Source of the DNA: Sorex araneus
Lineage: Eukaryota > Chordata > Mammalia > Eulipotyphla > Soricidae
Assembly: GCF_027595985.1 (NCBI RefSeq)
Contig: NC_073302.1
Location: forward strand, 9,922,966-9,986,965
Reading direction: 5' to 3'
DNA length: 64,000 nt
Below the pieces are notes generated by a model. That model was not told where the DNA came from, made no database searches, and saw nothing but the letters and a program-made list of their open reading frames with translations. Position 1 is the first letter of the stretch. Every line of letters begins with the position of its first letter. A program made the translations under genes and the position numbers. Below, piece after piece: positions 718-60,328 of the stretch.

Positions 718-951
718 CACTATGACTAACAGACAGCAGAGTGGGTAGGGCATCATTAGCCCTCCATGCAGCCAACCCAAGTTCAATTTCTACATCCATC
801 TCAGAGAGCCCAGTAAGCTACTGGGAGTATCTCACCTACACAATACTCGATATGCCAAATGCAGTAACAAAATTTCTCACAATGAAAACGTTACTGGTGC
901 CTGCTTGAGTAAATCCTTGAGCAACTGGATGGCAAGGACATGACAGTGACA
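718..951 (+). mobile_element. Long shrew SINE (tRNA head, RTE-like tail), old copy
   Basis: Diverged long-type SINE. A tRNA-like head is followed by a body ending in cagtaac and a tail of the gttactggtgcc...gagcaac...gacagtgac type. It sits inside the intron of the flanking receptor. The same insertion recurs at 9418-9645 and, in the other orientation, at 30781-31008, so it predates the split of these three OR units. Confidence 0.75.
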
Positions 952-1090: not shown

Positions 1091-1740
1091 TACCAGAACA
1101 GGAGATAATTTTCATCATTTACCACTAAAATAATGTGAAACTATGTTGGGATAGAATAACTACCATGAAAATTGTTGGATCCTCACTGGTCAGAGATATC
1201 CAGATAGTATTTTCTTCACCAAAAGTGACAATCAACATTAACAATAGTGGCAGATATTTATCTTTTATAGACACTATGCACACATCATTCCAAGGGATTT
1301 ATAACACTGTGTCACTGTCATACTGTTGCTCATCGATTTGCTCGAGTGGACACCAGTAACATCTGCATTGTGAGACTTGTTGTTACTGTTTGGGGCATAT
1401 TTTATATGCAATTTCATTTATAAAACCTCAGCACAGCACAAAGAAGCAGCATTTAATCCATTTTAATAACTCAGAACAATAGATTTGTTATCTCAATGTG
1501 CAAAGTTACATCATTCATAAGTAAAATAGGTGAAAATATATCTTTAAGGGATAATCCATCACCTAACCACTGTATATAATTCTTCCTGTTATCATAAAAA
1601 GACATACATTGTAATATCACTTCACATCTAAAGAAATTACACTTATAGATAATTTAATCCCCATTGTTTTAAACACTTCAATTTCAAATAAATATGTATT
1701 TGGTGCTGTATGATATATACGGCAACTTAAATGGTATATA
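1091..1740. other. Intronic DNA of the MSS receptor unit, no gene
   Basis: AT-rich sequence colinear with 9790-10420 and, inverted, with about 29990-30640 and 62700-63380. I see no coding potential; short open frames are not conserved between copies. Confidence 0.7.
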
Positions 1741-1756
1741 TAGCAGCATCATTTTA

Positions 1757-1939
1757 TTTTATTTTATTTTTTTTTCTTTTTGGGTCACACCCGGCGATGC
1801 ACAGGGGTCACTCCTGGCTCATGCACTCAGGAATCACCCCTGGCGGTGCTCAGGGGACCATATGGGATGCTGGGATTCGAACCCGGGTCGGCCGCGTGCA
1901 AGGCAAACGCCCTACCCGCTGTGCTACCACTCCAGCCCC
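1757..1939 (-). mobile_element. Short shrew SINE, young copy with target-site duplication
   Basis: On the minus strand this reads tRNA-like head with an intact B box, a body ending gggtgtgacccaaaaag, then an A-rich tail. It is flanked by a perfect 16-bp duplication (tagcagcatcatttta at 1741-1756 and 1940-1955). The paralogous site near 10420 is empty, so this insertion is younger than the duplication that made the two left-hand OR units. Confidence 0.92.
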
Positions 1940-6371: not shown

Positions 6372-6620
6372 ATAGCACTGTAGCACTATAGCACTGTCTT
6401 CCCGTTGTATATCGATTTGCCCACTGAGTGGGCACCAATAACGACTCCATTTTCAGACTTGTTGTTACTATTTCAGGCATATCAAGTACACTATGGGTAG
6501 CCTGCCAGGCTCTGCCATGCGGGCAGGATAGTCTCGGTATCTTGCCAGCTCCGAAGAGGGTCAGAGTAATTGAACGTGGATTGGCTGCGTGCAAGGTAAA
6601 TGCCCTACCTGTTCTGCTAA
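6372..6620 (-). mobile_element. Long shrew SINE
   Basis: On the plus strand it reads cgatttgcccactgagtggg, ggcatatcaa, ctgccaggctctgccatgcg, and ends in the reversed tRNA-like head (tgcgtgcaaggtaaatgccc). The longest spurious open frames of this region come from this SINE and the next one. Confidence 0.8.
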
Positions 6621-8274: not shown

Positions 8275-9237
8275 TCATATTAAGTTATTTGAGCTACATG
8301 ACTTCATTCTGTTAACAAATAATTTTAGGGCCTGTTTTATATCTCTGTTTCTCAGACTGTAGATGAAAGGATTCAGCATGGGGGTGACTATCATATACAT
8401 CACAGAAGCAGCTATTTCTTTAGCACTGGACACGGATGGCGAGGAGAAAACGTATACTTCTGTAATGGTTCCATAGAATAAAGACACAACAAGGAGATGG
8501 GAACCACAGGTAGAAAGGACTTTGAAGAATCTCTTCGCAGAAGGATCCTTCATAACAGTGGCCCATATGCGAATATATGAGCAAACAATAGTGATAAAAG
8601 GCAGGAAAACAAATGTTCCAACATCAATGAAGAGAAACCATTCATTGAGTGAGACATCTGAACAGCTCATCTTCAGGAGAACAGTGAGTTCACAGAAGAA
8701 GTGGGGGATGGTAATGTTATCACAAAAGGACACTCGAATCAAGAGGAGGGTGTGCAACAGAGAGCGGAGAGAACAGAAGACCCAGGATGCAGAAACTAAT
8801 GAGACACATTTCTCTTGCCTCAGGATGGTGGCATAGTGGAGTGGCTGACAGATGGCCACATACCTGTCATAGGCCATCAATGCAAGAAGTATGTTGTCAA
8901 CTGAACCAAACCACATGAAAAAATACATCTGTGACATGCACCCTGCATAGGGGATGGACTTGTGAATGCTCTGCATGTCCTTCAACATTTTGGGCACAGT
9001 GACAGATGAGAAGGACACGTCAGTGATTGCCAAGTGGCTGAGGAAGAAGTACATGGGGGTGTGGAGACGAGAGTCCATCCGGATGAGCAGGATGATGAGC
9101 AGGTTCCCCAGCACCGTGGCCAGGTACATGACCAGGAATAATGTGAAGAACAAACCCTGATGTTCTGGAGGTATGGGGAGTCCCAGAAGCAAAAATTCAG
9201 ACACAGTGGTCTTATTATCTCTTTGTATGCTGCTCAT
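8275..9237 (-). CDS. Olfactory receptor, MSS type, intact
   Basis: Complete single-exon odorant receptor of 320 residues, a normal length for the family. Features: N-terminal sequon NKT (residue 8), TM1 GN at 44-45, [13 protein letters not shown] at 58-70, TM3 cysteine C100, [10 protein letters not shown] at 121-130 (G-protein contact), loop-2 cysteines at 172, 182 and 192, KVLSTCGSHL entering TM6, [12 protein letters not shown] in TM7 and a short basic tail. Loop 2 has an extra sequon (NIT at 174). A splice acceptor (sense cattcccag, AG at 9245-9246) lies 7 bases before the ATG and fixes the start. A matching promoter module lies at 12040-12365. By sequence it is closest to mammalian OR1J-type receptors; the subfamily is from memory and tentative. 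Confidence 0.95.
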   Translation of the reverse strand: MSSIQRDNKTTVSEFLLLGLPIPPEHQGLFFTLFLVMYLATVLGNLLIILLIRMDSRLHTPMYFFLSHLAITDVSFSSVTVPKMLKDMQSIHKSIPYAGCMSQMYFFMWFGSVDNILLALMAYDRYVAICQPLHYATILRQEKCVSLVSASWVFCSLRSLLHTLLLIRVSFCDNITIPHFFCELTVLLKMSCSDVSLNEWFLFIDVGTFVFLPFITIVCSYIRIWATVMKDPSAKRFFKVLSTCGSHLLVVSLFYGTITEVYVFSSPSVSSAKEIAASVMYMIVTPMLNPFIYSLRNRDIKQALKLFVNRMKSCSSNNLI

Positions 9238-9417: not shown

Positions 9418-9645
9418 CTAACAGATAGCACAGTGTGTAGGCATAAGCCTTGCATGCAGCCAACCCAGGTTCAATTTCTACACCCCTCTCGAGAGCCTGG
9501 CAAACTACCGGGAGTATCTCACCTGCACCATTTTCGATATGCCAAAAACAGTAACAACATTTCTCACAAGGGAGACGTTACTGGTGGCCGCTCGAGCAAA
9601 TCCATGAGCAACTGGATGGCAGGGACATGACAGTGACAATACAAA
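9418..9645 (+). mobile_element. Long shrew SINE (same insertion as 718-951)
   Basis: Colinear with the SINE in the left-hand unit and with 30781-31008. Compared with 31009-31200, the DNA next to its tRNA-like head has lost about 165-190 bases in both minus-strand units. Confidence 0.8.
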
Positions 9646-9790: not shown

Positions 9791-12035
9791 AGATAATTTT
9801 CATCATTTACCGTTAAAATAATGTGAAACTATGTTGGGTTAGAATAACTACCATGAAAATTGTTGGATCCTCACTGGTCAGAGATATCGAGATAGTATTT
9901 TCTTCACCAAAAGTGACAATCAACATTAATAATAGTGGCAGATATTTATCTTTTATAGACACTATGCACACATCATTCCAAGGGATTTACATCACTGTAT
10001 CACTGTCATAATTTTGCTCATCGATTTGCTCGTGTGAACACCAGTAACATCTCCATTGTGAGACTTGTTACTGTTTTGGGCATATTTTATATATAATTTT
10101 ATTTATTAAACCTCAGCAGAGCACAAAGAAGCAGCATTTAATCCATTTTAATAACTGAGGATAATAGATATATTATTTAAACGTGTAAAGTTACTTCATT
10201 CAAAAACAAAATTGGTCAAAATATATCTTTTAGGGATAATCGATCTCCAACCACTGTTTATAATTCTTTCTGTTATGATGAAAGACATGCTTTGTAATAT
10301 CACACCATATCTAAAGTAATCACATTTATTGATCATAAATTCCCAGTGTTTTAAACCCTTTAATTTCATATAAATATGTATTTGATGCTTTATGATATAT
10401 GGGAACTTAATTGGTATATATGGTAGCATCATTCAAAGATATGAACAACCAGATAGTTTAGACATAGTAGAAAAAAACTTTGACCATAGCTCTCTGATGG
10501 TAGACTCTAAATTCAATATTCCCTTAGGAGCTCTGAGTTAGAGGTTAGAATAGCCAAACACATACTGCCAAGAATGATCCATACTGACCTTTATATTCAG
10601 ATTTAGTTGATGGACAAGTCCACTAGGAACCGTTATATTCCTTAGGGACACTGGCTATTCTGGTTCATGTCCACCTGGGATGACAATGACTTGAGCCTTC
10701 CATCCAGGCCAGGATGCTCATGGACATGTTCTGTGTATCCTCCCTGGAAGAAACTAGAAGAAAATTAGCAGACCATTGTGGGAGATTTGGTGCAGGCAAC
10801 ACCTCAGAAGACAGCTCAGCATGAGCTGGAAATGTCAGGCCATGTCCAAGATTTTAAGAATTGCCTGTGTAGGAGTTTTCTTAAATTCCTGAGATTTTTA
10901 AACTATGTTTACTCAGACATTGGAGAAATTAGAATCATGATTACAACGAACTTCAGTTGGGGAGAGATAATGTTTATACTTGATCTTCTTTGAGAACTTA
11001 TTGTATGTCAGACATGATACTAAATAACTTGTGTGCATTTTTCATTTTAAGTATTGATATTGTATTATTATCAAATATTTACCCTTTATAAGTGAAAATT
11101 ATTTCAGATACAGATATGTAAGTATCAGTCTTCAGATAATATACTAATATTACATGTTGAGGCACTGACACAGTAGGTATTATGTGATACTTTCCTAGAG
11201 GTGGAAACACACATGAACATATTAAATCAGTGCAGTAATGTAATCACTATTGACAGTTCACTGGATATGCATTAGTGAGATCAATGCTTCCTAGTCATTT
11301 ACCTACACCACCACTACTTTGACAAAGACATAAGCAAATACAAACAGAATAATAAATGAAATACTCAATAAGTCAATGTTCAACATCTCACATCACTAAA
11401 TATTTTGAGTTTTTTGATTATTTTGAGTCTTTTTACCCATGCTGGTTATTGGCAAATTTAGAAAACTGCGCTCAGTAGCTGGACACAAATTTGTCTGATC
11501 AGACACTTCAGTCTCATATTTAAATATTAGATCTGCACATAGAGGAGAATATGTAAGTAACTGAAGGAGAACAGAGCAGGTTTTGAGCACACATCCCAAT
11601 TCACACTCAGAACTGCTCTTCATGTACTCAATGGAAATTTATTTGTCTCTGTGTTTCTGATAAATAAGAGAAAATATTCCAATCATGTATAGCATGCATC
11701 TCCCACAGTCTCTACATTCATGTCTCTTCTTATCTCCTATTTTTCTCCATTTCCTTTCTATATAAGCAGATATATCACATATCCAACACAATTTTTGAAG
11801 AAACATACAAATATTTACATCACATCAATAGGAATAAGCACACAGACTCACATGCCTATCACACAGCTTTCTAAACACACAGAGACACATCTTGCTCTCC
11901 TAGAATTGACACCTCACTGGTCACTCTGGCCTCAGCACTGGTGGGTAGCTCAGGCATCTTCTCATTTAATTTCTGAGTCACCACCTTCTATCATAGAAAT
12001 CAGAATAAAAATAGTAGAAAGAAGCATCAATAATC
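9791..12035. other. Putative OR intron, no gene
   Basis: Colinear with 1091-3545 apart from the missing 1757-1939 SINE. Open frames here do not persist in the paralogous copies. Confidence 0.65.
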
Positions 12036-12371: not shown

Positions 12372-14960
12372 TCACTGTTTTGTTTTAATTTTATTGAATC
12401 ACTGTGAGATAGTTACAAGCTTTCATGTTTGGGTTACAATCTCACAATGTTCAAGTACCCATCCCTCCACCAGTGCACATTCCCCACCACCAACATCCCT
12501 GGTATACCCACCCTTTCCCACTTTCCCCCTGTCAATATGGCAGACAATATTCCCCATACTCTCTCTCTACTCTGGGGCATTATGGATTACAACACAGACA
12601 CTGAGCTGTCATCATGTTTGGTCCATTATCTACTTTTGGCATGCATCTCCCATCCCAACTGGTTCCTCCAGCCATCATTTTCTTAATGATCCCTTCCCTA
12701 TACCATCTGCCTTCTGCCCTCCACTCATGAAGCAGTCTTCCAGCTATGGGGCAATCCCCCTGGCTCTTGTAACTACTGTCCTTGTTTGTCCGCTTCGTGT
12801 GACATTATTTTATACTCCACAAATTAATGCAGTTCCTCTATGTCTGTCCCTCTCTTTCTGACTCATTTCACTTAGCATCATACTCTCGATGTTTATCATT
12901 TATAAGCAAATTTCATGACTTCATCTCACCTAACAGCTGCATAGTTTTCCACTGTGTAGATGTACCAAAGTTTCTTTAACCAGTCATCTGTTTTAGGGTA
13001 CTCGGGTTGTTTCCATATTTTGGCTATTGTGAACAGTGCTGCAATGAATATATAGGTACAGATGTCATTTCTACTGTGCTATTTTTTTATCCTCAGGATA
13101 TGTTTCCAGAAGTGTTATTGTGGGGTCATATGGAAGCTCAATTTCTAGTTTTTGAAGGACTGTCCATATTGTTTTCCAGAAATGTTTGACCAGTCTGCAT
13201 TCCCACCAACAGTGAAGGAGAGTCCCTTTTTCCCCATATCCACACCAGAACTGGTTGCCTTTGTAGTTTTGAATGTGTGCCAGTCTCTGTGGTGTGAGAT
13301 GATATCTCATTGTTGTTTTTATTTGCATCTCTGTGATGACTAGCAATGTGGAGCATTTTTTCTAGTGCCTTTTGGCCATTTGTATTTCTTTTTTGAGGAA
13401 ACATCTCTTTGTTTCTTCTCCCCATTTTTGATGGGGCTGGAGGTTTTTTTCTTATACAATTCTACAAGTGTCTTGTATATCCTGGATATTAATCCCCTAC
13501 CAGATGGGTATTGAGTAAATATTCTTTCCCATTCTGTGGGCTCTTTCTTATTTTGGTCACTGTTTCTTTTGAAGTGCAGAAGCTTCTTAGTTTGACGTAG
13601 TCCCATTTGTTTATGTTTGCTTCCACTTGCATGGTCAGTGCTGTTCCGTACTTAAAGATGCTTTTAGCTTCAATGTCATGGAGAGTTCTGCCTACATATT
13701 CTTCTATGAACTTTAAAGATTCATGTCTGATATTGAGGTCTTTAATCCACTTTCACGTGATTTTTGTGCCTGGCATTAGACAGAAGTCAGAGTTCATTTT
13801 TTTTGTAGGTAGCTATCCAGTTTTCCCAGCACTACTTGTTGAAGAGGCTTTCTTTGTTCCACTTTGCATTTCTTGCTCCTTTGTCAAAGATTAAGTGGCC
13901 ATATATTTGGGGGTATGTGACAATATATTCAGCTCTTTTCCATTGGTCTGCAGGTCTGTTTCTAGCCCAGTACCATGCCGTTTTAGTTACTACTGCTTTG
14001 TAGTAGAGTTTGACGTTGGGGAAGGTGACGCCACCCATCTTCTTTTTCCCAAGGATTGCTTTACTCTTCGTGGGGATTTATTGTTCTATATAAACTTCAG
14101 GAGTGTTTTTTCTATTTCTTTGAAAAATGTTATGGGTATCCTGATCAGGACTGCATTAAATTTGTGTAGAGCTTTGGGCAGTATTGCTATTTTGATACTG
14201 TTAATTCTGCCTATCCATGAGCAGTGGATGTGTCTCCATTTCCTAGTGTCCTCCTTTATTTATTTAAGTAGTGTTTTGTAATTTTCCTTGTATAGGTCCT
14301 TCGCCTCTTTGGTTAAGCTGATTCCAAGGTACTTGATTGCCTGCGGTACTATTGTGAATGGATTTTTTTTATTGTCTCTTTCCTCTCTTTCATTATTTGT
14401 ATATAAGAAAGTCATGGACTTTTGAGTGTTGATTTTGTAGCCTTCCACTTTACTATATAAACTTATTGTATCTAGGAGCTTTTCTGTAGTCTTTAGGTTT
14501 TTCCAAGTATAGTATTATATCATCTGCAAATAGTGATAACTTGATCTCTTCCTTTCCTATCTGTATGTCCTTGATATTTTTTTCTTGTCTAACTGCTATG
14601 CCAGGACTTCCGGTACTATATTGAATAGGAGTGGCAAAGTCAGGCAACCTTGCTTTAGAGGGATCTTAGAGGGAAGGCTTTCAGTTTTTTCCCATTGAAA
14701 ATGATACTTGCTGTATGCTTTTGGTAGATGCCTTTGACTATATTCAGGAAAGTTCCTCCGATGTCCATTCTGCTGAGAGTTTTCATCATAAATGGGTGCT
14801 GAATCTTGTCAAAAGCTTTCTCTGCATCTACTGATATGATTATATGGTTTTTATTATTTCTTTTATTAATATGATGAATTATGTTGATTGATTTGTGAAT
14901 GTTAAACCATCCTTGCATCTCTGGAATGAATCCTACTTGGTCATGGTGTATGATATTTGA
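12372..14960 (-). mobile_element. L1, 5'-truncated, antisense, ORF2 3' half
   Basis: Minus-strand L1 with its poly(A)/3' end at 12372, the 3' UTR, then the C-terminal and RT-proximal parts of ORF2 split over several frames. Recognisable pieces are [24 protein letters not shown] and, near 14640-14900, [15 protein letters not shown] of the reverse transcriptase. A start-to-stop reading is interrupted by many shifts, so it is dead. Truncated at 5' near 14960. Shares its insertion point with 3898-4600. Confidence 0.9.
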
Positions 14961-16798: not shown

Positions 16799-17100
16799 CA
16801 TATAATGCTATCACTATCACTATCATCCTGCTGATCCATGATTTTCTCGAGCTGGCCCAGTAACATCTCCATTCGTCCTAACTGTGAGATTTTAACAGCC
16901 TCTCTTTATTCGTCCTTCCCAACAGTACAGCATTAGAGGCTTTTCAGGGTCAGGAGAATGAGACCCATCATTGTTACTGTATTTGGCATATGAATATACC
17001 ATAGGGAGCTTGACAGGCTCTCCTACGGGGGCAGGAAAACTCTCTGTAGCTTGCCAGGTTCTCCGAGAGGGAGTACTATGCTATAAGATGTCGAGATTCC
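16799..17100 (-). mobile_element. Long shrew SINE variant with internal insert
   Basis: Reversed long SINE (tttctcgagctggcccagta, tttggcatatgaatatacca, agcttgccaggttctccgag). About 75 bases from ttaacagcctctctttattc to gaatgagac are inserted in the body compared with the other copies. Confidence 0.7.
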
Positions 17101-17697: not shown

Positions 17698-17892
17698 TCA
17701 CAGTCAGTCATCCCCTTGCTCATCAATTCGCTCCAGCGGGATGTTTCTAGTGTGAGACTTGTCGTTTCTGTCTTTGGCATATCGAATCCACCACGGGTAG
17801 CTTTCCAGGCTCTGCCTTGCGGGCAAAATACTCTCAGTGGCTTGCCAGGCTCTCCGAGAGGGGCAGAAGAATCGAACCCCAGTAGGCTAGGA
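17698..17892 (-). mobile_element. Long shrew SINE, head-truncated
   Basis: Reversed copy with gctcatcaattcgctccagc, tggcatatcgaatccaccac, gcttgccaggctctccgaga and gaatcgaacccc, lacking most of the tRNA-like head. Confidence 0.8.
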
Positions 17893-19149: not shown

Positions 19150-19393
19150 TTTGGGCAGGAGCAATAGAACAGTGGGTAGGGCGTTTGCCTTGCAGGTGAC
19201 CGACCTGGGTTTGATTCCTTCGTCCCTCTCGGAGAGCCTGATAAGCTATCCAGAGTATCTCGCCCAAATGGCAGAGCCTGGCAAGCTCCTGTGGAGTATT
19301 TGATATGCCAAAAAACAGTAACAAGTCTCACAATGGAGATGTTACCGGTGCCCGCTTGAGCAAATCGATGAGCAATGGGATGACAGTGATAGT
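19150..19393 (+). mobile_element. Long shrew SINE, full length
   Basis: tRNA-like head (cagtgggtagggcgtttgcc, B box gggtttgattcc), a body with ctctcggagagcctg and gtatttgatatgcc, then a tail ending gggatgacagtgatag. The tail codons 19334-19381 read WRCYRCPLEQIDEQWD, matching the C-terminus of the RTE reverse transcriptase at 22949-22981. This suggests the tail derives from that element. Confidence 0.92.
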
Positions 19394-19569: not shown

Positions 19570-19890
19570 ATGTTTCTTCAAAAGTTCTGTCTCCTCAACA
19601 CCGCCTTATCACTTCTGGATAGATCAACAAGATCAAAACTCAGCAAGGAAACACTGGCCTTGAAGGAAGAAATAGAAGAGAGAGAGCTAATAGATATGTA
19701 CAGGGCTTTGCATCCCCAAAAGAAAGAATACACATTCTTATCCAGTGCACATGGAACATTGTCCAAAATAGATCATGCACTGGGCCACAAGCATATATCC
19801 ATAGAATCAGGAAGATAGAAGTTGTGTCATCTATCTTCTCACACATAAGACACACCGTAATACAATTAATAACCATTTTCCATAATTCCC
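19570..19890 (+). mobile_element. L1 ORF2 fragment (end of endonuclease domain)
   Basis: The plus frame reads LLDRSTRSKLSKETLALK, then EYTFLSSAHGTLSKIDHALG, the hallmark of the L1 endonuclease C-terminal part. It is interrupted by the RTE element. L1 ORF2 resumes at about 23019. Confidence 0.85.
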
Positions 19891-19924
19891 GCACTATATT
19901 TGATAGGGTTCAAATATGGTGTGA

Positions 19925-22900
19925 ACCATGGTAACACCTCTAAGGGTGATTGGAGACTGCCCTACAAGCCTCCATTCTTCTCGGAGAGCCTGGCAAGCTA
20001 TTGAGGGTATCCCACCCAAAGGACAGAGCCTAGCAAGCTACCCATGGAATATTCGATATGACAAAACCAGTAACAACAATGAGCCTCGTTCACCTGACAC
20101 AGAAAGAGCTCCCAACATGGCAGCGTTAAGAAAAATGAGCAAGGAGAGGCTGAAAAAATCTCAGGGATGAACTAGACTGCCAAAACAAAGAAAGACTAAA
20201 ATGACTGTCTGCACTTTCAATGTACATATGCTGGTATCAGAAGCATCCATCGAGGACCTGATGGTGCAAGCACAGAAGATCAAGTTCGACATCATTGGTC
20301 TGACCCGAATGAGAAGACATCAATCACATCATGCCATTTTCAACTCTGGAAAAGAATTGTACCTCTGAACATGCAACAACAGAGGTGTCAGTGGCTTTGG
20401 TGTCCATGTAAACACGAACTTGGCCATGAGCATTGATTCATTCGAATACCTAACAACCCGATTCAGATGATTACGCTTGAATAGATATGGCTCACTGCCA
20501 GCAGTGTCTATCTTTGTCGTCTATGCACCAACATCCAACTACCATGAAGAAGAAATTTAGAAGTTCTATATAGAATTTGAGAGGTTCTATAAAGAAGACC
20601 ACACCTTCTACAAGATCATCGTTGGTGATTTTAATGCCAAGATAGGACCGAGAAGGTCGCTCAAAGAACAGCCATGGCCTAGAATGGAAGGATCAGTCTG
20701 AGTTCATCATGTCGACCAAGACCATCCATGGTAACTCACAGTTCCAGAAGGCCAAATCTAAACGCTGGACATGGGAGTCTCCCAGTGGACAGTTCCACAA
20801 TGAAATTGACCACATCATATTCAATCGAAGGTTTTGCCTGACCGATGTCGCTGTTGTTCCAAGATTCCAAACGGGATCGGACCACCATATCCTTTGTGCA
20901 AAATTATACTTCACAGAGCGGGAAGAAGCTCTGCAAAGTTTAAGTTTAAGAAAAGAACTCCCAGAATGACCATCAACTGGGAGCTCTTTGACATTATTGC
21001 AGTGACATGGGGAGATGCCATCCTTGACAACATCGACAAGGAATATGATCAACTGATTCAGCACCTCCATGACAGCGCGAAGAATGCTGAGGCTGAGAAA
21101 GCTACAAACAGTTCATGTGTCTTTGGAAACTCTTGAGCTCATTCATCAATGTGGTTTGCTGTGAGCCTCAGGCAACAACAAGCTAAGGTACGAGCTCCCA
21201 AAACTGTGGAGAGAAGCAATAAAGGAAGACCTGAAAGAGAGAAGAGCAGCAGTGTTGGACGATGCGGCAGAAGTCAAGAAAAGTATTCGCAATGCTCACC
21301 TGTCCTTCACAAACTACAAGACTAAGATGACTGCCCTCCAACATCCTGATGGATCTATTATATCTCCAGGAAGGTAATGGGGAGGATTGTTCACAACTTC
21401 TATTCGGATCTCTTTGACAGCCATGTCCACCTGCCCACATACCAAATTCCACAGGATGGATATGTCATTCCTAATGTCCTCCCTTCTGAAATCTGACATG
21501 CCATTTCTTTGGTAAAGACATGTACAGCACCTGGTCCGGACAAGGTCAGACCCAAACACCTGAAGAATCTGCCACCAGTACTCATCAATACACTGGCTTG
21601 GCTCTTCACATGCTACCTGTTTAAATGCAAGGTTCTGTCCCAGTGGAAAATCAGCAGGACTGTTCTGTTTACAAGAAGGGAGACATCCACGACATCGGCA
21701 ACTATCACCCAATCTGCCTGCTGTCTGTCTTCTACAAGTTGTTCACTCATGTCATCCTGAATAGAATAGGCAGAACACTAGATGAAGAACAACCATGAGA
21801 GCAAGCCGGGTTCCTAAATGGATTCAGCATGACCGACCATATTCACACAGTTACCAAACTCATTGAAGTTTTCGCGCTAGTTCAAGATGCCACTCTCTCA
21901 AGCCTTCCTCGACTTAAAGAAGGCCTTTGATTCAGTTGAGACTGAAGCAGTCACAGAAGCCCTAGCTAAACAGGGCATTCAAACTCAGTACATGAGGATC
22001 CTCCGCGAGCTGTATTGCGGATTCACCACCAGTATTTCCCCATTCTACAAGGAAGTGATCATTGATGTAAAGAGAGGGGTTCGGCAGGGTGATACCATTT
22101 TACCGAAACTCTTCAGTGCCACTGAATTCAAGAATGTCATGTGATGACTTGAATGGGAAGGAATGGGAGTGAAGATAGACAGTTGGCAACTACACCACCT
22201 CTGTTTCACTGATGACATCTTTCTCATAACGCCAAACATTAGCCAAGTGGCACAAATGCTAGCCAACTTCAACCGGGAGCGTGGAAAGGTCGGACTGTAG
22301 CTGAACCTCAACAAGACGATGCTCATGAAAAACGAACTAGTCCCTGACGCTCTATTTTCTCTCAATGGAACGAAGATCTCCAAATGCAGCAGTTATGTGT
22401 TCCTGGGTCGAGAACTCAACATGAGGAATGACTTGGCACCAGAACTGCGCAGCTGGAAGATAGCAGCGTGGAACGCCTCCAAGAGCATAGAAGAAGTGGT
22501 TAACTCTGGACACATCTTTTTGAATCCACCATTCTTCCTGTGCTATCCTATGCCTCAGAGACCTGGGCCCTATGCAAACGAGGTGAGAATGCTATTTGGG
22601 TATCCCAAAGAGGAATACAAAGAGCTATGCTAGGAGTATCACATCTCACTCACGTGAGAGAAGGAATCCGGAGTTCCTACCTCCATCAATGATCAAGACT
22701 CAGGGACGCTGTCTCATTTGCCAGTGTCGAAAATCAGATGGGCCTGACACATAATGCGATTTAGAGACAACTGCTGTACTAGAGCTGTTACTGACTGGAT
22801 TCCACAGGACGTCAAAAGACCGCGTGGCTGCCCACCTACAAGATGATCAGACTTCTTCGTCAAAACCCTAAATGAACCATTTGAGGCTCTTTCTGTTCCT

Positions 22901-23010
22901 GGAGTGAGCAGATATCATTGGGCTACATTAGCATGAGAAAGCATCAAATGGAGGTGTTACTGGCACCCACTCAAGCAAATCGAAGTTCAACAGGAAGACT
23001 AGTGATACAA
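19925..23010 (+). mobile_element. RTE-clade non-LTR retrotransposon, nematode-like, degenerate
   Basis: A nearly full-length but dead RTE element. A 5' region related to the long SINE body (19977-20085) precedes an AP-type endonuclease starting MTVCTFNV (20201). Further motifs are VVYAPTSNY, VGDFNAKIG (20621-20646), NEIDHIIFNRRFCLTDVAVV and GSDHH. The reverse transcriptase follows: APGPDKVRPKHLKNLPPVL (21530s), motif A LDLKKAFDSV (21908-), motif B VKRGVRQGDTI, motif C FTDD instead of the usual FADD (22205-22216) and a C-terminus WRCYWHPLKQI (22949-22981). Stops and shifts are frequent, and the usual endonuclease glutamate region reads GLTRMRRH. As I recall the literature, an RTE of this type in the common shrew was attributed to horizontal transfer from parasitic nematodes (Dunemann and Wasmuth, 2019). 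It lies inside an L1. Confidence 0.88.
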
Positions 23011-23018
23011 GTGATCTT

Positions 23019-24058: not shown

Positions 24059-24303
24059 TCGTCACTGTCTCTGTCACTGTCATGTCATTGCTCATAGATT
24101 TTTTTGAGCGGGCACCAGTAAGAGACTTATTGTTACTGTTTTTGGCATATCCAATACGCCACGGGTAGCTTGCCAGGCACTGCCGTGTGGGCGCGATACT
24201 CTCAGTAGCTTGCCGGGCTCTCCAAGAGGGACGGAGGAATCTAACATGGGTCGGCTGCATGAAAGGCAAATGCCCTACCGCTGTGCTATCGCTCCAGCCA
24301 GTG
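24059..24303 (-). mobile_element. Long shrew SINE, recent, with target-site duplication
   Basis: Well-preserved reversed long SINE ending in gctgtgctatcgctccagcc. It is flanked by aatgaaaat at 24050-24058 and 24304-24312. Confidence 0.92.
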
Positions 24304-28364: not shown

Positions 28365-30640
28365 GTGAGAGGCTTATTGATACTTCTTTCTACTTTTTTT
28401 ATTCTGATATCTATGATAGAAGGTGGTGACTCAGAAACTAGATAGTAAGGTGCCTGAGCTATCCACGAGTGCTGAGGCCACAGTGAGGAGTGAGGTGTGA
28501 ATTCTAGGAGAGCAAGATGTGTCTCTGTGTGTTTAGAAAGCTGTGTGATTTGTATGTGAGTCTGTGTGCTGATTCCTGTTAGTGTGATGTGAATATTTGT
28601 ATATTTCTTCAAAAATTGTGTTGGATGTGTGTGATATATATCCTAATATTGAAAGGAAAATGGAGAAAAACAGAAGGAGAGAAGAAGAGATATGGATGTA
28701 GAGACTGTGGAAGATGCATGATATACATGATTGGATTCTTTCCTTTTATTGATCAGAAAACAGGGAGCCAAATAAATTTCCATTAATTACAAGAAGAGCA
28801 GTTCTGAGTGTGATTTGGGATGTTCGGTTAAAACCTGCTCTGTTCTCCTTCATTGACTTACATATTGTCCGATATTTGATATTGTAAACGTAATATTTAA
28901 ATATGAGACTGAAGTGTCTGATCAGACAAATTTGTTTCCAACTACAGAGGGCAGTTTTCTAAATTTGCCAATAACCAGCATGGGGAAAAAAGGCTCAAAA
29001 TACTTAGTGATGTGAGATCTTGAATATTGACTTATTGAGTATGTCATGCTTTTTTACACTGTTTGTATTTGCTCATGTCTTTGTAAAAGTAGTGGTGGTG
29101 TAAGTGTATGACTAGGAAGCACCGATCTCACCAGTGCATATCTAGTGGACTGTCAATAATTATTACATTACTGCACTGATTAAATATGATCATGTGTGTT
29201 TCCACCTCTAGGAAGGTATCACATAAAACCTACTGTGCCTGTGCCTCAATAGGTAATATTAGGATATTATTTGAAGACTAATTGTTACATATCTATATCT
29301 GAAATAGTTTCCAGTTACAAAGGGTAAATATTTGATCACAATACAATATGAAAACTTCAAATGAAAAATGAACACAAGTTATTTGTATCAAGTGTGGCAT
29401 ACAATAAATTCTAAAAGAAGATGACGAATAACCATGATCTCTCACCAAATAAAGTGTTACTGTCATCAAAATTCTTATTTCTCCAATATCTGAGTAAACA
29501 TAGGTTAAATATCTAAGGAACTTAAGAAAACTCCTATACAGGCCCTTCTCACAATCTTGGACAGGGCCTTAACTTTCCCGCTTATGCTGAGCTGTCTTCT
29601 GAGGTCTTGCCTGTAACAAATCTCCCACAATGGTCTGCTAATTTTCTTCTAGTTTCTTCCAGGAAAGACATACAAGAACATGTCCATGAGCATCCTGACC
29701 TTGATGGAAGGCTCAAGTCATTGTCATCCCAGGTGGACATGAACCAAGACAGCCAGTGTCCCTTAGTAATATGATGGTTCCTAGTGGACTTGTCTATTTC
29801 TCCTATACCTCAAATACAAAGGTCAGTATGTTTCATTCTTGGCACTATATGTTTGGCAATTCTAACCTCTAACTTAGAGCTTCTAAGGGAATATTGATTT
29901 TGGAGCCTACCATTAGAGACCTGTGGGTCAAAGGTTTTTCCATTTATGTCTAAATTATCAGGTTTTTCATATCTTTGAAATGATGCTGCCATATATAACA
30001 TTTAAGTTGCAGTATATATCATACTTAACCAAATACACATTATTTGAAATTAAAATGTTCAAAAACTGGGGATTATATGATCTATAAATATGATTACTTT
30101 AGATGTGAAGTGATATTACAAAGCATATATGGTTATGATAACAAAAATAATTATGAGAATTATATACATGGTTAGGAGATGGATTATCTCTAAAAGATAT
30201 ATTTTCACCTATTTTACTTAAGAATGATGTAACTTTGCACATTTAGATAACATATCTATTGTCCCAGTTATTAAAATGGATTAAATGCTGCTTCTTTGTT
30301 CTCTGCTGAGGTTTTATAAATAAAATTGGATATAAACTATGCCCAAAACAGTCACAAGTCTCACAATGGAGACGTTACTGGTGTCCAATCGAACAAATCA
30401 ATGAGCAATGGGATGACAGTGATACAGTGGTATAAATTCTTTGGAATGATGTGTGCATAGTGTCTATAAAGGATCAATATCTGACACTATTATTAATGTT
30501 GATAGTCACTTTTGGTAAGGAAAATACTACCTAAATATCTCTGACCAGTGAGGATCCAACAAATTTCATGGAAGTAATTCTATCCCAATGTAGTTTCACA
30601 TTATTTTAAAGGTATGTGATGAAAGGTAGCTCCTAATGTT
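28365..30640. other. Putative OR intron, no gene
   Basis: Inverted counterpart of 1091-3545 and 9791-12035, and colinear with 61110-63380. At 30340-30425 a fragment of the long SINE tail (gagacgttactggtgtccaa) is embedded, as at 63065-63150. Confidence 0.65.
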
Positions 30641-30780
30641 CAGGTATTTTTTTTTTTTTGGCACATCCTGCTGTGCACGGACTTACTCCTGGCAGTGTTC
30701 AGAAAGCAATCTGAGGTCCTGGGGATTGAACATCAGTCTGCCACACATGCTACCCTTCCGGATATCCATATCTTTATGTT

Positions 30781-31008
30781 GTCACTGTCATGTCCCTGCC
30801 ATCCAGTTGCTCATGGATTTGCTCAAGCGGTCACCAGTAATGTCTCCATTGTGAGAAATGTGTTACTGTTTTTGGAATATCGAATATTGTGAGGGCGAGA
30901 TACTCTCGCTAGCTTGCCAGGCTCTCTGAGAGGGATGGAGGAATAAAACCCGGGTCAGCCGCATGCAAGATAAACGCCCTACCCGCTGTGCAATCATTCT
31001 AGCTCATT
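30781..31008 (-). mobile_element. Long shrew SINE in OR intron, target-site duplication
   Basis: Reversed long SINE. Flanking tttatgtt at 30773-30780 and 31009-31016. The unit at 63500 preserves the empty site (single tttatgttatcatagtaaat), while both left-hand MSS units carry the insertion. Confidence 0.92.
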
Positions 31009-31374: not shown

Positions 31375-32337
31375 ATGAGCAGTGTACAAAGAGATAATAA
31401 GACCACTGTGTCTGAATTTTTGCTTCTGGGACTCCCGATACCTCCAGAGCATCAGGGTTTGTTCTTCACCTTATTCCTGGTCATGTACCTGACCACGGTG
31501 CTGGGGAACCTGCTCATCATCCTGCTCATCCGGATGGACTCTCGTCTCCACACCCCCATGTACTTCTTTCTCAGCCACTTGGCTCTCACTGATGTGTCCT
31601 TCTCATCTGTCACTGTGCCCAAAATGTTGATGGACATGCAGAGCACTCACAAGTCCATCCCCTATGCAGGGTGCCTGTCACAGATATATTTTTTCATATG
31701 GTTTGGTAGTGTTGACATCTTAATTCTTGCAGTGATGGCCTATGACAGGTATGTGGCCATCTGTCAGCCACTCCACTATGCCACTATCATGAGGCAAGAG
31801 AAATGTGTCTCATTAGTTTCTGCATCCTGGATCTACTGTTCTCTCCGCTCTCTGTTGCACATCCTCCTCTTGGTTCGAGTGTCCTTTTGTGATGACATTA
31901 CCATCCCCCACTTCTTCTGTGAACTGCCTGTTCTCTTGAAGATGAGCTGTTCAGACATCTCACTCAATGATTGGGTTCTCTTCATTGAGGGTGGATTAAT
32001 TGTTGTCTTGCCTTTTATCACTATTGTGGGCTCTTATATTTGCATATGGGCCACTGTGCTGAAGGATCCTTCAGTTAAGAGATTCTTCAAAGTCCTTTCT
32101 ACCTGTGGTTCCCATCTCCTCGTTGTGTCTTTGTTCTATGGAACCATTGCAGAAGTGTACTTTTTCTCCTCTCCATCCCTCTCCAGTAATAAAGACATAG
32201 CTGCTTCTGTGATGTATATGATAGTCACCCCCATGCTGAACCCGTTCATCTATAGCTTGAGAAATAGAGATATAAAACAGGCCCTAAAATTATTTGTTAA
32301 CAGAATGAAGTCTTGTAGCTCCAGTAACTTAATATAA
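31375..32337 (+). CDS. Olfactory receptor, MSS type, intact
   Basis: Complete 320-residue odorant receptor. It has the same hallmarks as 8275-9237: NKT sequon at residue 8, [36 protein letters not shown] and [12 protein letters not shown]. Compared with that copy, loop 2 reads CDDITIPHFF, so the second sequon is lost. Differences cluster in TM3 (DILILAV versus DNILLAL), TM4 to loop 2, and the loop 2 to TM5 stretch (IEGGLIVVLPF), the ligand-facing part. The acceptor tttcatttccag ends at 31367, 7 bases before the ATG. Promoter module at 28030-28364. The receptor couples to the olfactory G protein in the family at large; its ligand cannot be read from sequence. Confidence 0.95.
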   Translation: MSSVQRDNKTTVSEFLLLGLPIPPEHQGLFFTLFLVMYLTTVLGNLLIILLIRMDSRLHTPMYFFLSHLALTDVSFSSVTVPKMLMDMQSTHKSIPYAGCLSQIYFFIWFGSVDILILAVMAYDRYVAICQPLHYATIMRQEKCVSLVSASWIYCSLRSLLHILLLVRVSFCDDITIPHFFCELPVLLKMSCSDISLNDWVLFIEGGLIVVLPFITIVGSYICIWATVLKDPSVKRFFKVLSTCGSHLLVVSLFYGTIAEVYFFSSPSLSSNKDIAASVMYMIVTPMLNPFIYSLRNRDIKQALKLFVNRMKSCSSSNLI

Positions 32338-40271: not shown

Positions 40272-41234
40272 ATGAGCAACATGAAGAGAGATAATGAGAC
40301 CAGCGTGTCCCAGTTCTTCCTCCGAGGACTCTCTGTAGCACCAGATCATCAGGGTTTGTTCTTCACCCTCTTCCTAGTGTCATACCTGGCCACGGTGCTT
40401 GGGAACCTGCTCATCATCCTGCTCATCAGAATGGACTCCCGCCTCCACACCCCCATGTACTTCTTCCTCAGCCACCTGGCTTTCACTGACGTGTCATTCT
40501 CATCTGTCACTATGCCCAAGATGTTGATGGACATGCAGACTAACGAAAAGTCCATCCCCTATGCAGGGTGTATTTCTCAGGTATTTTTTATAATATTTTG
40601 TGGGTGTATTGATGATTTCCTTCTTACAGTGATGGCGTATGACAGATATGTAGCCATCTGTCAGCCACTCCATTACACAACCATCATGAGGCAGGAGCGA
40701 TGTGCCTTATTAGTAGGTTGGTCCTGGTTCCTCAGTTTTCTCCACGCTTTTTTACATGCTATTCTCTTGTCCCGGGTGTCATTTTGTTCCAACATTGTCG
40801 TGCCCCATTTCTCTTGTGAACTCACGGTCCTCCTTAACATGAGCTGTTCAGATATCTCTGTCAATGAACTGGCCATCTTCACAGAAGGAATAGTGGTTGT
40901 TTTCGTACCTTTCATAAGTGTCGTGGGCTCTTATGTTCGTATATGGGCCACTGTCCTAAGAAATCCCTCTGCTAAGAGACTCTTCAAAGTCCTTTCTACC
41001 TGTGGTTCCCATCTCCTTGTTGTATCTTTGTACTATGGGACCCTTGCAGAGGTTTATTTTTTCTCTTCTTCCTCTCTCTCCAGTAATAAAGATATAATTG
41101 CTTCCATCATGTATATGATTGTCACCCCTATGCTGAACCCTTTCATTTACAGTCTGAGAAACAAAGATATAAAACAGGCTCTAAAATTGTTTGTTAATAA
41201 GATGAAGTTCTTTAAGCCAAATAACTTAATGTGA
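40272..41234 (+). CDS. Olfactory receptor, MSN type, intact (unit A)
   Basis: Complete 320-residue odorant receptor starting MSNMKRDNETSVSQF, with the N-terminal sequon NET at residue 8. Hallmarks in order: [30 protein letters not shown], conserved loop-2 cysteines, VGSYVRIWATV in TM5, KVLSTCGSHLLVV in TM6, [14 protein letters not shown] in TM7 and a basic, Lys-rich C-terminus. The acceptor cattcccag (AG 40263-40264) lies 7 bases before the ATG and fixes the start. Compared with the unit B copy it differs at a handful of sites, several in TM3 (GCIDDFLLT), TM4 (WFLSFLHA), loop 2 (SNIVVPHF, no sequon) and TM5. Unlike unit B, no MSS-type receptor follows it before the L1 seam. Confidence 0.95.
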   Translation: MSNMKRDNETSVSQFFLRGLSVAPDHQGLFFTLFLVSYLATVLGNLLIILLIRMDSRLHTPMYFFLSHLAFTDVSFSSVTMPKMLMDMQTNEKSIPYAGCISQVFFIIFCGCIDDFLLTVMAYDRYVAICQPLHYTTIMRQERCALLVGWSWFLSFLHAFLHAILLSRVSFCSNIVVPHFSCELTVLLNMSCSDISVNELAIFTEGIVVVFVPFISVVGSYVRIWATVLRNPSAKRLFKVLSTCGSHLLVVSLYYGTLAEVYFFSSSSLSSNKDIIASIMYMIVTPMLNPFIYSLRNKDIKQALKLFVNKMKFFKPNNLM

Positions 41235-41700: not shown

Positions 41701-44089
41701 CATAAATTGTAGGTACCATACATAGTGTACATGTTGGGAGAAGCAACAGTAAAAGATTTCTGAGTGCATATTGACAAAAAAATGAATTCCAAATCAATTA
41801 CACAGGGAATCCAAGGTGTTTGTGGCACTTGTCTCCCTATTGATTTCTTGGGCAAAAAGAACTTGTAATAGAAAAAGTTTAAGAACCATGAGTTTAAGGT
41901 TATGCATTGTAGATTGCTGCCTCCAGATCAATCCTAGTGCGTCGTGAATCCCTGAGCATCCCTGGGGAAGACCTGTGGGCCACAGAACACTGTCAGTGTA
42001 GGTATGAAGGCATCTAAGCACAAGTGGAGTGTCCTGGCTAATCTCCAACACCACAGGGCCAGCATCCTTGGGTCCTTGAATTTAACTGACAGCCCTGGTA
42101 AACTATGAATTGCCAGAAGGAACCCTTCGTTCCCTCTCCAAGCAGAAATTTGGAAACTCTCTCCAAATTTAGACGTTGAAACAAATAAATTAAATAATTT
42201 TGTTCTGCACAAACACTATAAATTTTATACTTTTTGGTAATAAAATTTTGGATTCTTACTACATTTGATAACAGTATGCATATCTTGCACAAATACAGTA
42301 TAAACCATTCCACTACTATGTATACCACAAGATACTGAAATATAAATAAAAATGGGAAATATGTATACTCTTCTGAAATAGTGATGCATAAATTTATAAA
42401 GCAACAGAACACAGATTATTCTGGAGTTATCCTGGAAAATTCTGAAGAATAAATGTTATGTTGAGACAGGAAACAAATATCAATAAATTTAAGAAAAATT
42501 AAATCATATCAATATTTAAGCAAAATTGTATAAAACTAGAAATTAATCAGAGCAATGCTTAATGTAATCACAATTATATGGAGATTAAGCAATATGGTGC
42601 TGAACAATAACTCTATCTAAAGAAAAAAAACAGAGTAGGAATGCAAAAACCTAAAGACAAAGGAAGTGGAATATAATGACCTTCCTAAACTTCTGGACGC
42701 AGGAAATGTGAAAGTATGAGGTCCTTCCTCATAAAGAAAAATAAAAGCTTAAATACATGATCTAGCTTTTTACTTTAAAAGTTCTTTAAGTAAAAGCAAA
42801 AACCAACATTATAAAATAAAGATTTTTAGAAAACCCTATACAAGAAGTTTATTAAGAGATGGTTCTTTGAAATGACAACTAATATTGACAAGTGTTTAGC
42901 AATAGTCAAGAAAGAAGAGCACCTCCATCCATAAGGGGTCTAGGAGATGGCTTGAGGGTCTGGAGCACAAAATTCTTACACAGGAGGTTCGTGTACACTT
43001 TCTAGCACTACACAGTCCTCCAGGAACTTACAGGAGTGAATCTGAAATACTGTCACAGGAGTATTTTCTAAGTATCACCACTTGTGCATCTATTCTCCCA
43101 ATTAAATAATAGTAGATTAGCCACTGGCAGCATAAAAATTGATGTCCTGTAATTCTTTTTATCTCAGTTCCCTTATGCCTTTGGTCAAACATTTCTGTCC
43201 AGTACCAGTTCATCAGATTGCTGATCTCTTGCATTTTATGATCTCTGATTCTCCCCTTTCCTGATGTTATAGAAATGTTTCTTAGCTCAAATGTGGTCAG
43301 TTGTGACTTCTGTAGAGTTGAGATAATGGAAAATCTTCTCATTCATTGAATATGGAGAACTTCTATGAATTTGCTCATCATGATGCTTCACAGGATGTTG
43401 TGCAACCATTTAATGTTTATATGTTCTTTGTGTAGATACTCCGGGAGCACTTACAAAACTGGTATCTTTGGCATTCCTGAGAAACTCTTCAAAATTAACA
43501 TTTTAAATATCTGCAGCCTGTTGTGTCAACTATGTTCAGATAAAGCTAGAAAGAGGAAAGGGATGAGACAGTAAACTGGAATTATCCTAAATCAATAAAA
43601 GAAATAATTAATGTTTTTATAAAGTAGATTTCAGACACAGATGGTTTCATGTATGAATTTTGTCCATAATCATAAAGCAAAAAATAGTACCAATTAACTG
43701 TGACTAGAAATTTCTTGAACAATTATTTTGAGTTCTTGTTTTCCTATTTCTTTTTTCACTTATCTTTTCAAATTATTTTTAAATTATCATTTCTAGACTT
43801 GGTTATTTGACTAAACTATCTTTAACAAATCAACCTGTGTCTACATAAATAAAGTGGGTCAATACGGCTTGAACCAAGAAAAAGCTTTAGTATTTGTAAG
43901 TTCTCTCTTTCCCTGACTGAACAGTTAAAAGATGGTGAAAGAAGTGACGCCTTTGGCAGGTATCAATATTGAACCTACGGGGATGCTCGTATGCACAAAA
44001 AAAGAAGCTTATACAGACTAAAAGATCCTGATCAAATCTGAACCATACTGACTTTTCAGGACTGTGCTAGGCTATGATAGGTGTATGAG
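41701..44089. other. Unit A flank between the MSN receptor and the next module
   Basis: Non-coding, colinear with 24600-27490 and 55670-59920. It includes an old retroelement-like block at 41900-42140 (cctgagcatccctgggg). No gene. Confidence 0.6.
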
Positions 44090-44333
44090 CACTGTGGCAC
44101 TGTGCTTCCATTGTTCATCGATTTGCTCTAGCAGGCACCAGTAATGTCTCCATTTTGAGACATGTTGTTACTGTTTTTGGCATATCAAATATGCCACGGG
44201 TACCTGCCAGGCTCTGCTGTGTGGGGAGATACTCTGGAGAGCTAGCCAGGCTCTCCGAGAGGGGTGGAGGAATAGACCCTGGGTAGGCCACGTGCAAGGC
44301 AAACACCCTACCTGCTGTGCTATTGCTCCAGAG
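44090..44333 (-). mobile_element. Long shrew SINE with target-site duplication (unit A)
   Basis: Reversed long SINE flanked by gtatgag (44083-44089 and 44334-44340). Also in unit B at 59921-60162. The older paralogue at 27490 is empty, so insertion fell between the two duplication events. Confidence 0.9.
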
Positions 44334-49400: not shown

Positions 49401-50124
49401 TCTTCAATTTCCTTGAAAAGCTTGAGAAGGAATGGCAAAAGGTCCTCTTTAAATGTTTGGAAGAACTCGCTAGTGAATCCGTCTGGACCAGGGCTTTTGT
49501 TTTGGGGAATATTTTTGATTACCATTTCAATTTCTGTGATGTTAATTAGACTATTCAGGTACTCCAGGTCTTCTTGGTTCAGCCTTGGGAGATTATAGGA
49601 GTCGAGACATTTATCCATTTCTTCTAGGTTCTCTTGTTTTGTGGCATACAGATTTTCAAAGTAGTCTCTGATGATCTTTTGAATTTCATTGGTTTCTGTT
49701 GTGATGTCCCCCTTTTCATTTTTGATTCGTTTATAAGGGTTCTCTCTCTCTTTCTTTGTGAGTCTTGCTAGTGGTTTATCAATCTTGTTTATTTTCTCGA
49801 AGAACCAGCTCTTGGTTGCATTGATCTTTCGGATTGTCTTTTGGGTTTCCATGTCGTTAATTTCTGCTCTAAGTTTTATTATCTCTTTCCTTCTGCCTGG
49901 TTTGGGCTCCTTTTGTTGGTCCTTTTCTAACATCTTGAGCTGTGAAGTCAAGTTATTTATTAAGGCCCTTTCTTCCTTCCTGAGATATGCTTGCAGAGCT
50001 ATAAATTTTCCCCTTAACAAGGCTTTAGCTGCAACCCGCGCTTTCCTCCCCTGCAGACTGCCGGCCAAGTGGCCAGCACGCAGACCCCAAGCGCCGCCGC
50101 CATTCTGTCTTGCGGCAAAGGTCC
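46440..50124 (-). mobile_element. L1, antisense, internally deleted, filling the duplication seam
   Basis: An older repeat fragment (46441-46612) precedes an L1 3' end (ttaattcaccatgtggaaag at 46640) and 3' UTR. On the minus strand the ORF2 C-terminus, RT and linker are well preserved. At about 50040 the ORF2 sequence joins a short GC-rich leader (50050-50124, with ggcggcggcg on the minus strand). ORF1 and the ORF2 endonuclease are absent. Unit A ends at its left edge and unit B starts at its right edge; I find no target-site duplication. Confidence 0.88.
47082..50068 (-). pseudogene. L1 ORF2 remnant (reverse transcriptase and C-terminus)
   Basis: A 431-codon open frame (48773-50068) covers the linker ([20 protein letters not shown]), the RT palm ([68 protein letters not shown]) and the catalytic LFADD near 48790. 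A frameshift follows. The remaining thumb and C-terminal parts are split over frames at 48132-48626, 47558-47833 and 47082-47627, the last with [13 protein letters not shown] and LKKLWYIYTMEYYVAVRKHE. The frame opens with [20 protein letters not shown], in which the first residues come from the GC-rich leader. This is mobile-element coding DNA, not a host gene. Confidence 0.9.
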
Positions 50125-54014: not shown

Positions 54015-54128
54015 TGAATATAAGACGCCACAACACAGATGAAAGGTAGGAAAACAGCCACTCTTCTGTAAGTGAAGATGGCCAGTTCATTGACTGAGAT
54101 GTATGAACAGTTTGTGTTTTACACGACA
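54015..54128 (-). pseudogene. Antisense OR fragment in the intron upstream of OR 54241
   Basis: Same antisense loop 2 to TM5 fragment as at 40045-40160, at the same distance from the ATG, with a few further substitutions (ttctgtaag in place of ttccctcag). Confidence 0.85.
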
Positions 54129-54240
54129 AAATGAGCAGAAGTCTAGCTTAAACCTAACATTCTTAAATAAAAATGACAGTGTTTTCACTTTATGGCTATT
54201 CAAGGCTCAGATTTTTCTTAATTTCATTCCCAGCAAACAC

Positions 54241-59339: not shown

Positions 59340-59920
59340 ATTTTAAAATTCTGCAGCCTGTTGTGTCAACTATGATCAGATAAAGCTAGAAAGATGAAAG
59401 GGATGAGATAGTAAAATGTAATGATCCTAAATCAATAAAAGAAATTTAATTAATGTTTTTATAAAGTAGATTTCAAACACAGATGATTTCATGTATGAAT
59501 TTTGTCCATAATCATAAAGGAAAAAAATAGTACCATTTAACTGTGACTAGAAATTTCTTGAACAATTATTTTGAGTTCTTGTTTTCCTATTTCTATTTTC
59601 ACTTACCTTTAAAAATTATTTTTAGATTATCATTTCTAGACTTGGTTATTTGACTAAACTATCTTTAACAAATCAACCTGTGTCTACATAAATAAAGTGG
59701 GTCAATACAGCTTGAACTAGGAAAAAGCTTTAGTATTTGTAATTTCTCTCTTTCCCTGACTGAACAGTTAAAAGATGGTGAAAGAAGTGACGCCTTTGTC
59801 AGGTATCAACATTGAACCTACTGGGATGCTCGTATGCACTAAAAGAAGCTTATATAGACTAAAAGAACCTGATCAAATCTGAACCAAACTGACATTTCGG
59901 GGCTATGAGAGGGGTATGAG
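59340..59920. other. Unit B flank after the composite insertion
   Basis: Colinear with 43500-44083; non-coding. Confidence 0.6.
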
Positions 59921-60162: not shown

Positions 60163-60328
60163 AGGTATGAGAGGGAAGAACAAGTTGTATATCTTCTGTG
60201 CTACTGGAAATGTTTTTTTTGGGGGGTACAAGATTTATATGCAAATGGTCTCCCCCGGGATTCTGAAAGTGGCCCAACCCCACCTCCAACATGAGGGATG
60301 TGTGGGACTATATGTTAGATATAGATGA

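Follow-up and report, generated by a model that had tools for sequence, protein, structure and literature searches.

The long SINE of Sorex araneus is a chimaera in which a tRNA-type head is followed by about 110 nt of the leader of an RTE element and by the last ~60 nt of RTE. Very probably, the leader and the 3' end of a strongylid-type RTE were fused to the tRNA head after its B box, and the RTE drove the resulting wave of SINE copies. The window in which this was seen is a 64,000-nt stretch of DNA from a genome of 2.41 Gb in 65 contigs. The RTE-derived architecture matches that of Bov-tA/Bov-A2 and of the AviRTE SINEs and is of a kind already known. A sequence-only reading of the window had proposed that the RTE gave a tRNA-headed SINE its body and its tail, and the proposal is borne out by the 40 best-scored RTE 5' matches (40/40), by a 3' consensus of eight RTE copies and by the coding nature of the tail. 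The alignment of consensus ends suggested in that reading gives 107/111 bases for the body and 60/66 for the tail, and the shared 3' terminal repeat that it had suggested looking for is seen as CAGTGA-type tails; these tails and the target-site duplications are consistent with the proposal.

The focal copy matches positions 4-246 of the LONG model with 252.7 bits (nhmmer), and its parts are listed in Table 1. The LONG and SHORT consensuses can be aligned over the head only, the short SINE having the same head. At the joint between head and leader, the pol III B box GGTTCGATTCC is followed directly by RTE leader sequence (TCCGTCCCTCTCGG). The pol III boxes are kept in the long SINE, and the B box is visible by eye in the consensus. 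The head is assigned to tRNA by ARAGORN, which calls tRNA-Ala for one short SINE copy, and by Rfam, which calls tRNA for another; both calls fall on short SINE copies and none on long copies. The short SINE copy at 1862-1934 (-) is intact enough for an ARAGORN call of tRNA-Ala (TGC). The long SINE alignment has 27 rows, seven of them from genome loci and four of these (L004-L007) in reverse orientation; the majority consensus was taken from 23 of the 27 rows, without L004-L007, and one A (AGTAACAACAA) was inserted by eye.

Table 1. Features of the window (positions counted from its first base)
Feature	Position	Strand	Remarks
Focal long SINE	19153-19393	+	tRNA-type head, RTE leader piece, RTE 3' end and CAGTGA-type tail
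tRNA-type head of focal long SINE	19153-19218	+	boxes read by eye; head is that of the A-tailed short SINE
B box of focal head, GGTTTGATTCC	19208-19218	+	read by eye
SINE body, an RTE leader piece with GTCTCA at its end	19217-19331	+	consensus 107/111
SINE tail, last ~18 RTE ORF codons and start of terminal repeat	19332-19393	+	60/66 against RTE 3' consensus
Long SINE, body-deletion form	732-951	+	insertion identical to 9424 by flank
Long SINE	6381-6619	-	
Long SINE, body-deletion form	9424-9638	+	
Long SINE, 5'-truncated head	17704-17889	-	
Long SINE	24061-24301	-	9-nt target-site duplication ATTTTCATT
Long SINE, body-deletion form	30780-31005	-	duplication AACATAAA
Long SINE	44085-44333	-	paralogue of 59916-60164
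Long SINE	59916-60164	-	paralogue of 44085-44333
5'-truncated long SINE tail	1303-1409	-	flank shared by four copies
5'-truncated long SINE tail	9990-10085	-	flank shared by four copies
5'-truncated long SINE tail	30338-30431	+	flank shared by four copies
5'-truncated long SINE tail	63057-63152	+	flank shared by four copies
Degenerate RTE copy (endonuclease and reverse transcriptase; stops, frameshifts)	19849-23015	+	with leader and 3' end
RTE leader stretch equivalent to SINE body	19969-20079	+	
RTE 3' end equivalent to SINE tail	22946-23015	+	
Headless RTE derivative, D family	16804-17076	-	RTE 3' tail directly behind ~190 nt of RTE leader; 273.6 bits

The window holds nine long SINEs with head, body and tail, one of them (17889) with a partial head. 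The sequence-only reading had counted at least nine, and this number stands; as independent insertions only about six remain, because the flanks reveal segmental duplication. The flanks identify 732 and 9424 (probably also 30999) as copies of a single insertion and 44329 and 60160 as copies of a second one. The four tail-only copies have common flanks and were counted as one. The body-deletion form lacks ~26 nt of the body in 3/3 copies (732-951, 9424-9638 and 30780-31005), and it is either a subfamily or a single duplicated insertion. Four olfactory-receptor-like ORFs of 320-365 aa, named by eye, lie at 8275-9237 (-), 31375-32337 (+), 40272-41234 (+) and 54103-55200 (+); they sit in segmental duplications, which also multiply the SINE copies.

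The tail of the SINE is the 3' end of the RTE. Within the window, the tail matches 22947-23007 with 77% identity (blastn, E 1e-7). An RTE 3' consensus was built from eight copies, namely five fetched windows, L019, L026 and the window copy; of 18 windows retrieved in the search for 3' ends, five had a 3' match and 13 had none. This consensus runs through ...HWAALARDRDKWRCYWRPLEQIEDQWDDK to the stop and continues with repeats of the CAAGTGATA type. Aligned with it at 60/66 bases, the SINE tail is seen to consist of the last part of the RTE ORF together with the terminal repeat, and the score of 92 compares with a top score of 26 among 300 base shuffles. The codons that had been read in the sequence are confirmed in the RTE frame, with WRCYRCPLEQI at 19334-19366 and WRCYWHPLKQI at 22949-22981. 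The consensus tail also matches H. contortus in tblastn, where QWRRYWCPLEQIDEQRDD of the SINE tail agrees with the Haemonchus C-terminus EWRRYWRPLEEVDDQRDD at 13/18 residues (E 2.6e-9), and it matches four other C-termini with E values from 1.2e-7 to 0.037. Because the tail is coding sequence, it must be RTE-derived.

The body of the SINE corresponds to the RTE leader. In a blastn comparison inside the window, 19227-19325 matches 19979-20076 with 82% identity (E 1.6e-21), and the agreement of the SINE body consensus with the RTE leader consensus (107/111 bases) spans CCTCCGTCCC to AACAACAA, with a score of 202 against a top score of 32 among 300 base shuffles. These tests, with 300 shuffles each, reject chance as the source of either likeness, that of the body or that of the tail. 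The short SINE is likewise rejected as the source of the body, 100 of 300 shuffles being as good as it against the RTE leader. A genome search with 19979-20400 as the query gave 8818 candidates at first look, and scores were computed for the best 40. In all 40, the window copy included, the body is contiguous with the ORF; these matches start at query base 1-5, end at 407-422 and have at least 86% identity, and some of them are possibly duplicates of one another.

Twelve RTE 5' loci were fetched and aligned for a comparison of their upstream regions. At least 120 nt upstream of the SINE-like stretch are common to another locus in 9 of the 12; the shared length is 85 nt in L040 and 36 nt in L030, and L035 is absent from the matches. 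The window RTE copy has 130 nt of homology above 19979, its leader beginning near 19849 and the stretch in common with the SINE near 19969. The upstream homology stops at differing distances, and in two locus pairs it continues for ~1,500 nt. Since RTE homology lies upstream of the body in most loci, the body belongs to the interior of the RTE leader. The earlier claim that the body matches the region 5' of the RTE coding sequence thus holds (107/111), whereas its placement at the extreme 5' terminus of the RTE is rejected, as the leader extends further upstream in most copies. The long upstream stretches are common within the pairs L034/L037 and L038/L039 and only over ~190 nt between the pairs, and they are either host DNA that was duplicated or RTE leaders of different kinds. 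In L035, an inverted piece that codes for RTE reverse transcriptase, as judged by eye, is joined upstream of the leader; twin priming would give such a structure.

The protein of the window's RTE copy, with stops and frameshifts read through, matches Pfam RVT_1 (2e-20) and Exo_endo_phos (5.5e-6) in a single ORF. A protein search gave 342 proteins with E <= 0.001 among 8000 scored. The thirteen best of the 120 relatives listed have 60-65% identity over 92-98%; ten carry the names Ancylostoma, Necator or Haemonchus, and three, including the top two, are unnamed. Other RTEs, some from the same worms, follow further down the list at 35-38% identity. When 18 chosen proteins were placed in a midpoint-rooted tree, the window RTE joined the strongylid-type rows, with 100/100 for the split from six RTEs of 35-37% identity; the tree does not place it further inside that group, and the tree program issued warnings about long branches and about the differing composition of the window row. 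Judged by these protein comparisons, the window RTE belongs with the strongylid nematode RTEs. The accessible text of PMC6542046 describes RTE1_Sar as a strongylid-type RTE that occurs, within mammals, only in Sorex araneus, and claims its horizontal transfer from parasitic worms. The suggestion of a possibly transferred enzyme, made in the sequence-only reading, agrees with the strongylid kinship and with this published claim (PMC6542046), and we infer that the RTE came into the lineage by horizontal transfer. No relative turned up among viral contigs, whether a SINE-tail word or RTE proteins served as the query.

In a second family, D, which has no tRNA head, the RTE leader runs straight into the RTE tail. 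Its consensus agrees with the RTE leader at 157/190 bases, and it is multicopy, with 12 matches in a 200-kb sample (10 with leader and tail) plus one in the window; one of the 12 headless rows (L011_5506) was excluded from the D model. Headless copies are more diverged and therefore probably older. The headless family has coding residues in common with Haemonchus (LGRT..ERLLKSQG) at places where the present RTE consensus differs, and these may stem from an earlier RTE lineage or from a second transfer. At L011:5300-5504 (-), a headless element runs into a tRNA-SINE head instead of an RTE tail, which is perhaps a nested insertion or a fusion.

Some nematode RTE proteins have in-frame N-terminal extensions, and we compared these with the body; some of the extensions tested are probably host exons. 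Haemonchus P0017 matches the RTE leader consensus with 67.7% identity over 65 residues that include the ORF start (E 6e-29), this match overlapping the body by only ~20 nt, and it matches the headless consensus with 60.5% over 38 residues (E 3e-13). In a first test, the nematode leader pieces were cut by eye once a likeness had been seen. The SINE body scored 51 against P0105 (source unnamed; 0/150 shuffles, z 6.1) and 40 against Necator P0004 (0/150 shuffles, z 4.4), while 1 of 320 window tiles scored at least as high for P0105, and likewise for P0004; P0029, P0045 and P0017 were weak or null against the SINE body. The decayed body of the window's RTE reached significance with none of the five leaders in this test (z 1.7 for P0105 and 1.8 for P0004). 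In a frameshift-tolerant comparison, 13601-13707 (-) scores 55 against the P0105 leader, above the 51 of the SINE; this tile has no RTE, headless or long-SINE hit and is therefore counted as a chance match of that strength.

A second test followed a fixed rule and compared the RTE body consensus with ten extensions. P0105 scored 54 and P0004 scored 45, with 0/150 shuffles each, and P0045 was marginal (2/150). The other seven leaders were not significant, with 10 (P0017), 12 (P0003), 17 (P0044), 34 (P0029), 38 (P0114), 75 (P0030) and 76 (P0035) of 150 shuffles as good. Body-level homology is thus clear in 2 of the 10 nematode leaders (P0105 and P0004). Protein searches with the leader regions gave two matches each, the query included. 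From these comparisons, the homology of the body to nematode leaders appears uneven and moderate, and the direction from RTE to SINE is favoured for the body.

The abundance of the families was estimated from 200 kb, made up of 20 pieces of 10 kb each, one every 20 Mb along contig C1 only. The sample contains 21 long (16 with head), 12 headless and 108 short SINE hits and 2 RTE pieces, which take up 2.1%, 1.5%, 7.9% and 0.9% of the sampled bases, respectively. Five of the 21 long hits are 5'-truncated, and three of these five are tail-only and hardly distinguishable from other RTE-derived tails; among the 12 headless hits, one has only the tail and one only the leader. Rough extrapolation, on a single-contig basis and with fragments counted, gives 253,000 +/- 71,000 long, 144,000 +/- 56,000 headless and 1.30 +/- 0.19 million short copies and 24,000 +/- 17,000 RTE copies. 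Divergence from the consensus without CpG is 0.077 for the long (n=15), 0.134 for the headless (n=11) and 0.234 for the short SINEs (n=84), the last value comparing several subfamilies with one consensus; these values are biased low where the consensus was built from the same copies.

The 3' ends of the families were scored over the last 15 nt of each match plus 40 nt. Two or more AGTGA-type words are present in 12/15 long, 2/85 short and 3/10 headless copies, against 5.75% of random sequences; 3 of the 15 long tails are without two repeat words, and two of the other headless ends finish in TGA repeats. An A-rich end was found in 1/10 headless copies. Target-site duplications of at least 8 nt were found in 10/16 own flank pairs of long SINEs and in 9/240 mismatched pairs. 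The 16 SINEs were hand-picked (11 of the 16 headed sample copies and 5 of the 9 window copies), and six of them, including the focal copy, have no duplication of at least 8 nt.

It could be supposed that 19977-20085 is a separate SINE inserted in one RTE copy and that the tail likeness is slight, and the window alone, with its single RTE ORF copy, would allow this. The genome refutes it, for the stretch is in place in the best 40 of the 8818 RTE 5' matches, so that the RTE 5' region without the body which the sequence-only reading had envisaged did not turn up. RTE sequence also stands on both sides of the stretch in most loci aligned, and an RTE 3' end that fails to align with the tail, likewise envisaged, was not found (60/66); we give a separate insertion practically no credence. 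It is very improbable, too, that the RTE gained its leader piece from an earlier SINE. A LINE could in principle capture 5' sequence via template switching, and the homology of the body is clear in only 2 of the 10 nematode leaders, but those two match with 0/150 shuffles each. Moreover, RTE material did pass into the SINE, since the tail is taken from RTE coding sequence; the short SINE shows no similarity to the RTE leader (100/300 shuffles as good), and headless copies have the body followed by RTE sequence without any tRNA head.

The long SINE could also be a headless D element with an added tRNA head. The two families begin at nearly identical leader positions, and the D copies are the more diverged (0.134 versus 0.077). 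We nevertheless consider this origin unlikely, as the long body agrees with the RTE leader at 107/111 bases and with D at only 96/110, and the internal joint lies at a different place in the two. Being nearer to the RTE than to the headless family, the long body points to probably separate origins of the long and headless elements. As to the driver, L1 might move the long SINE as it probably does the short one, with the RTE parts as passengers; the A-tailed SINE uses the same head, and L1-like ORF2 pieces, named by eye, lie at 48132-50068 (-), a type that is the probable driver of the A-tailed short SINEs. A-rich 3' ends, however, occur in 0/15 long against 76/85 short SINEs and 9% of random 55-mers, which makes L1 a highly improbable driver of the long SINE. 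From its anatomy, the long SINE would have been moved by the RTE enzyme.

Similar systems are known from birds and ruminants. In the accessible part of PMC4844689, ManaSINE1 and other bird SINEs carry, behind their head, a bipartite tail taken from the two UTRs (5' and 3') of AviRTE, which is shared with nematodes and has 141 to 8,306 copies in avian genomes. The AviRTE SINEs belong to bird hosts and filarial nematodes, whereas the shrew long SINE belongs to a mammal and a strongylid-type RTE, has a tail of mostly coding sequence and reaches ~250,000 hits by extrapolation. Mammalian SINE/RTE pairs listed in the accessible text of PMC3747384 include Bov-tA, Bov-A2, RTESINE1 and the Afro SINEs; that review nowhere mentions Sorex or shrew. 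As far as PMC8620236 and PMC3747384 describe them, Bov-tA/Bov-A2 and BovB resemble the shrew case in pairing a tRNA-headed SINE with a headless RTE 5' element, both with the RTE 3' end, and in an RTE obtained horizontally by the host genome; the giraffe has 381,457 Bov-tA copies (PMC8620236), a count resembling that extrapolated for the shrew long SINE. The D family is likened to the Bov-A2/RTESINE1 type, with a 5' leader and a 3' end and no tRNA head. The shrew differs in its strongylid-type RTE and, presumably, in its tRNA head and an independent origin, the Bov elements being compared by description. RTE1_Sar of Sorex araneus is likewise a shrew-genome RTE of strongylid relationship, and the accessible main text of PMC6542046 contains the terms SINE, tRNA and non-autonomous 0 times. 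Accessible text of PMC8466645 gives Sor as a shrew SINE. The long SINE has the head alone in common with a Sor-type short SINE. Sor is presumably the A-tailed short SINE of the window. An RTE-derived shrew SINE was found nowhere in the open literature as far as it was accessible; Repbase, Dfam and subscription journals, outside this scope, may hold entries.

In the mechanism we propose, the fusion would have arisen when reverse transcription of the RTE switched templates to a tRNA-SINE transcript. Pol III would transcribe the long SINE, and the RTE protein would bind the 3' end that SINE and RTE have in common and copy it by target-primed reverse transcription. With the RTE acquired horizontally, the enzyme behind the SINE wave would thus be of nematode descent. 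An RTE of published worm origin and a SINE built from it mean that the wave of repeats seems to go back to an acquired gene. The SINE lineage is likely to have changed its driver, an L1-dependent head having captured pieces of a nematode-derived RTE; together with the headless elements, this would amount to several hundred thousand copies and several percent of the genome.

The shrew would then be a large mammalian case in which a LINE, seemingly from a parasite, supplies enzyme and tail for a host SINE wave, and it adds to ruminant BovB and bird AviRTE. One head occurs in this genome both on an A-tailed SINE (L1 type) and on an RTE-tailed one, so nature provides a matched pair in which to study what determines the LINE that moves a SINE. 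If the proposed origin is true, no long SINE or headless element predates the arrival of the RTE, so that orthologous insertions in other shrews would bracket the date of the transfer, and the RTE transfer would become datable.
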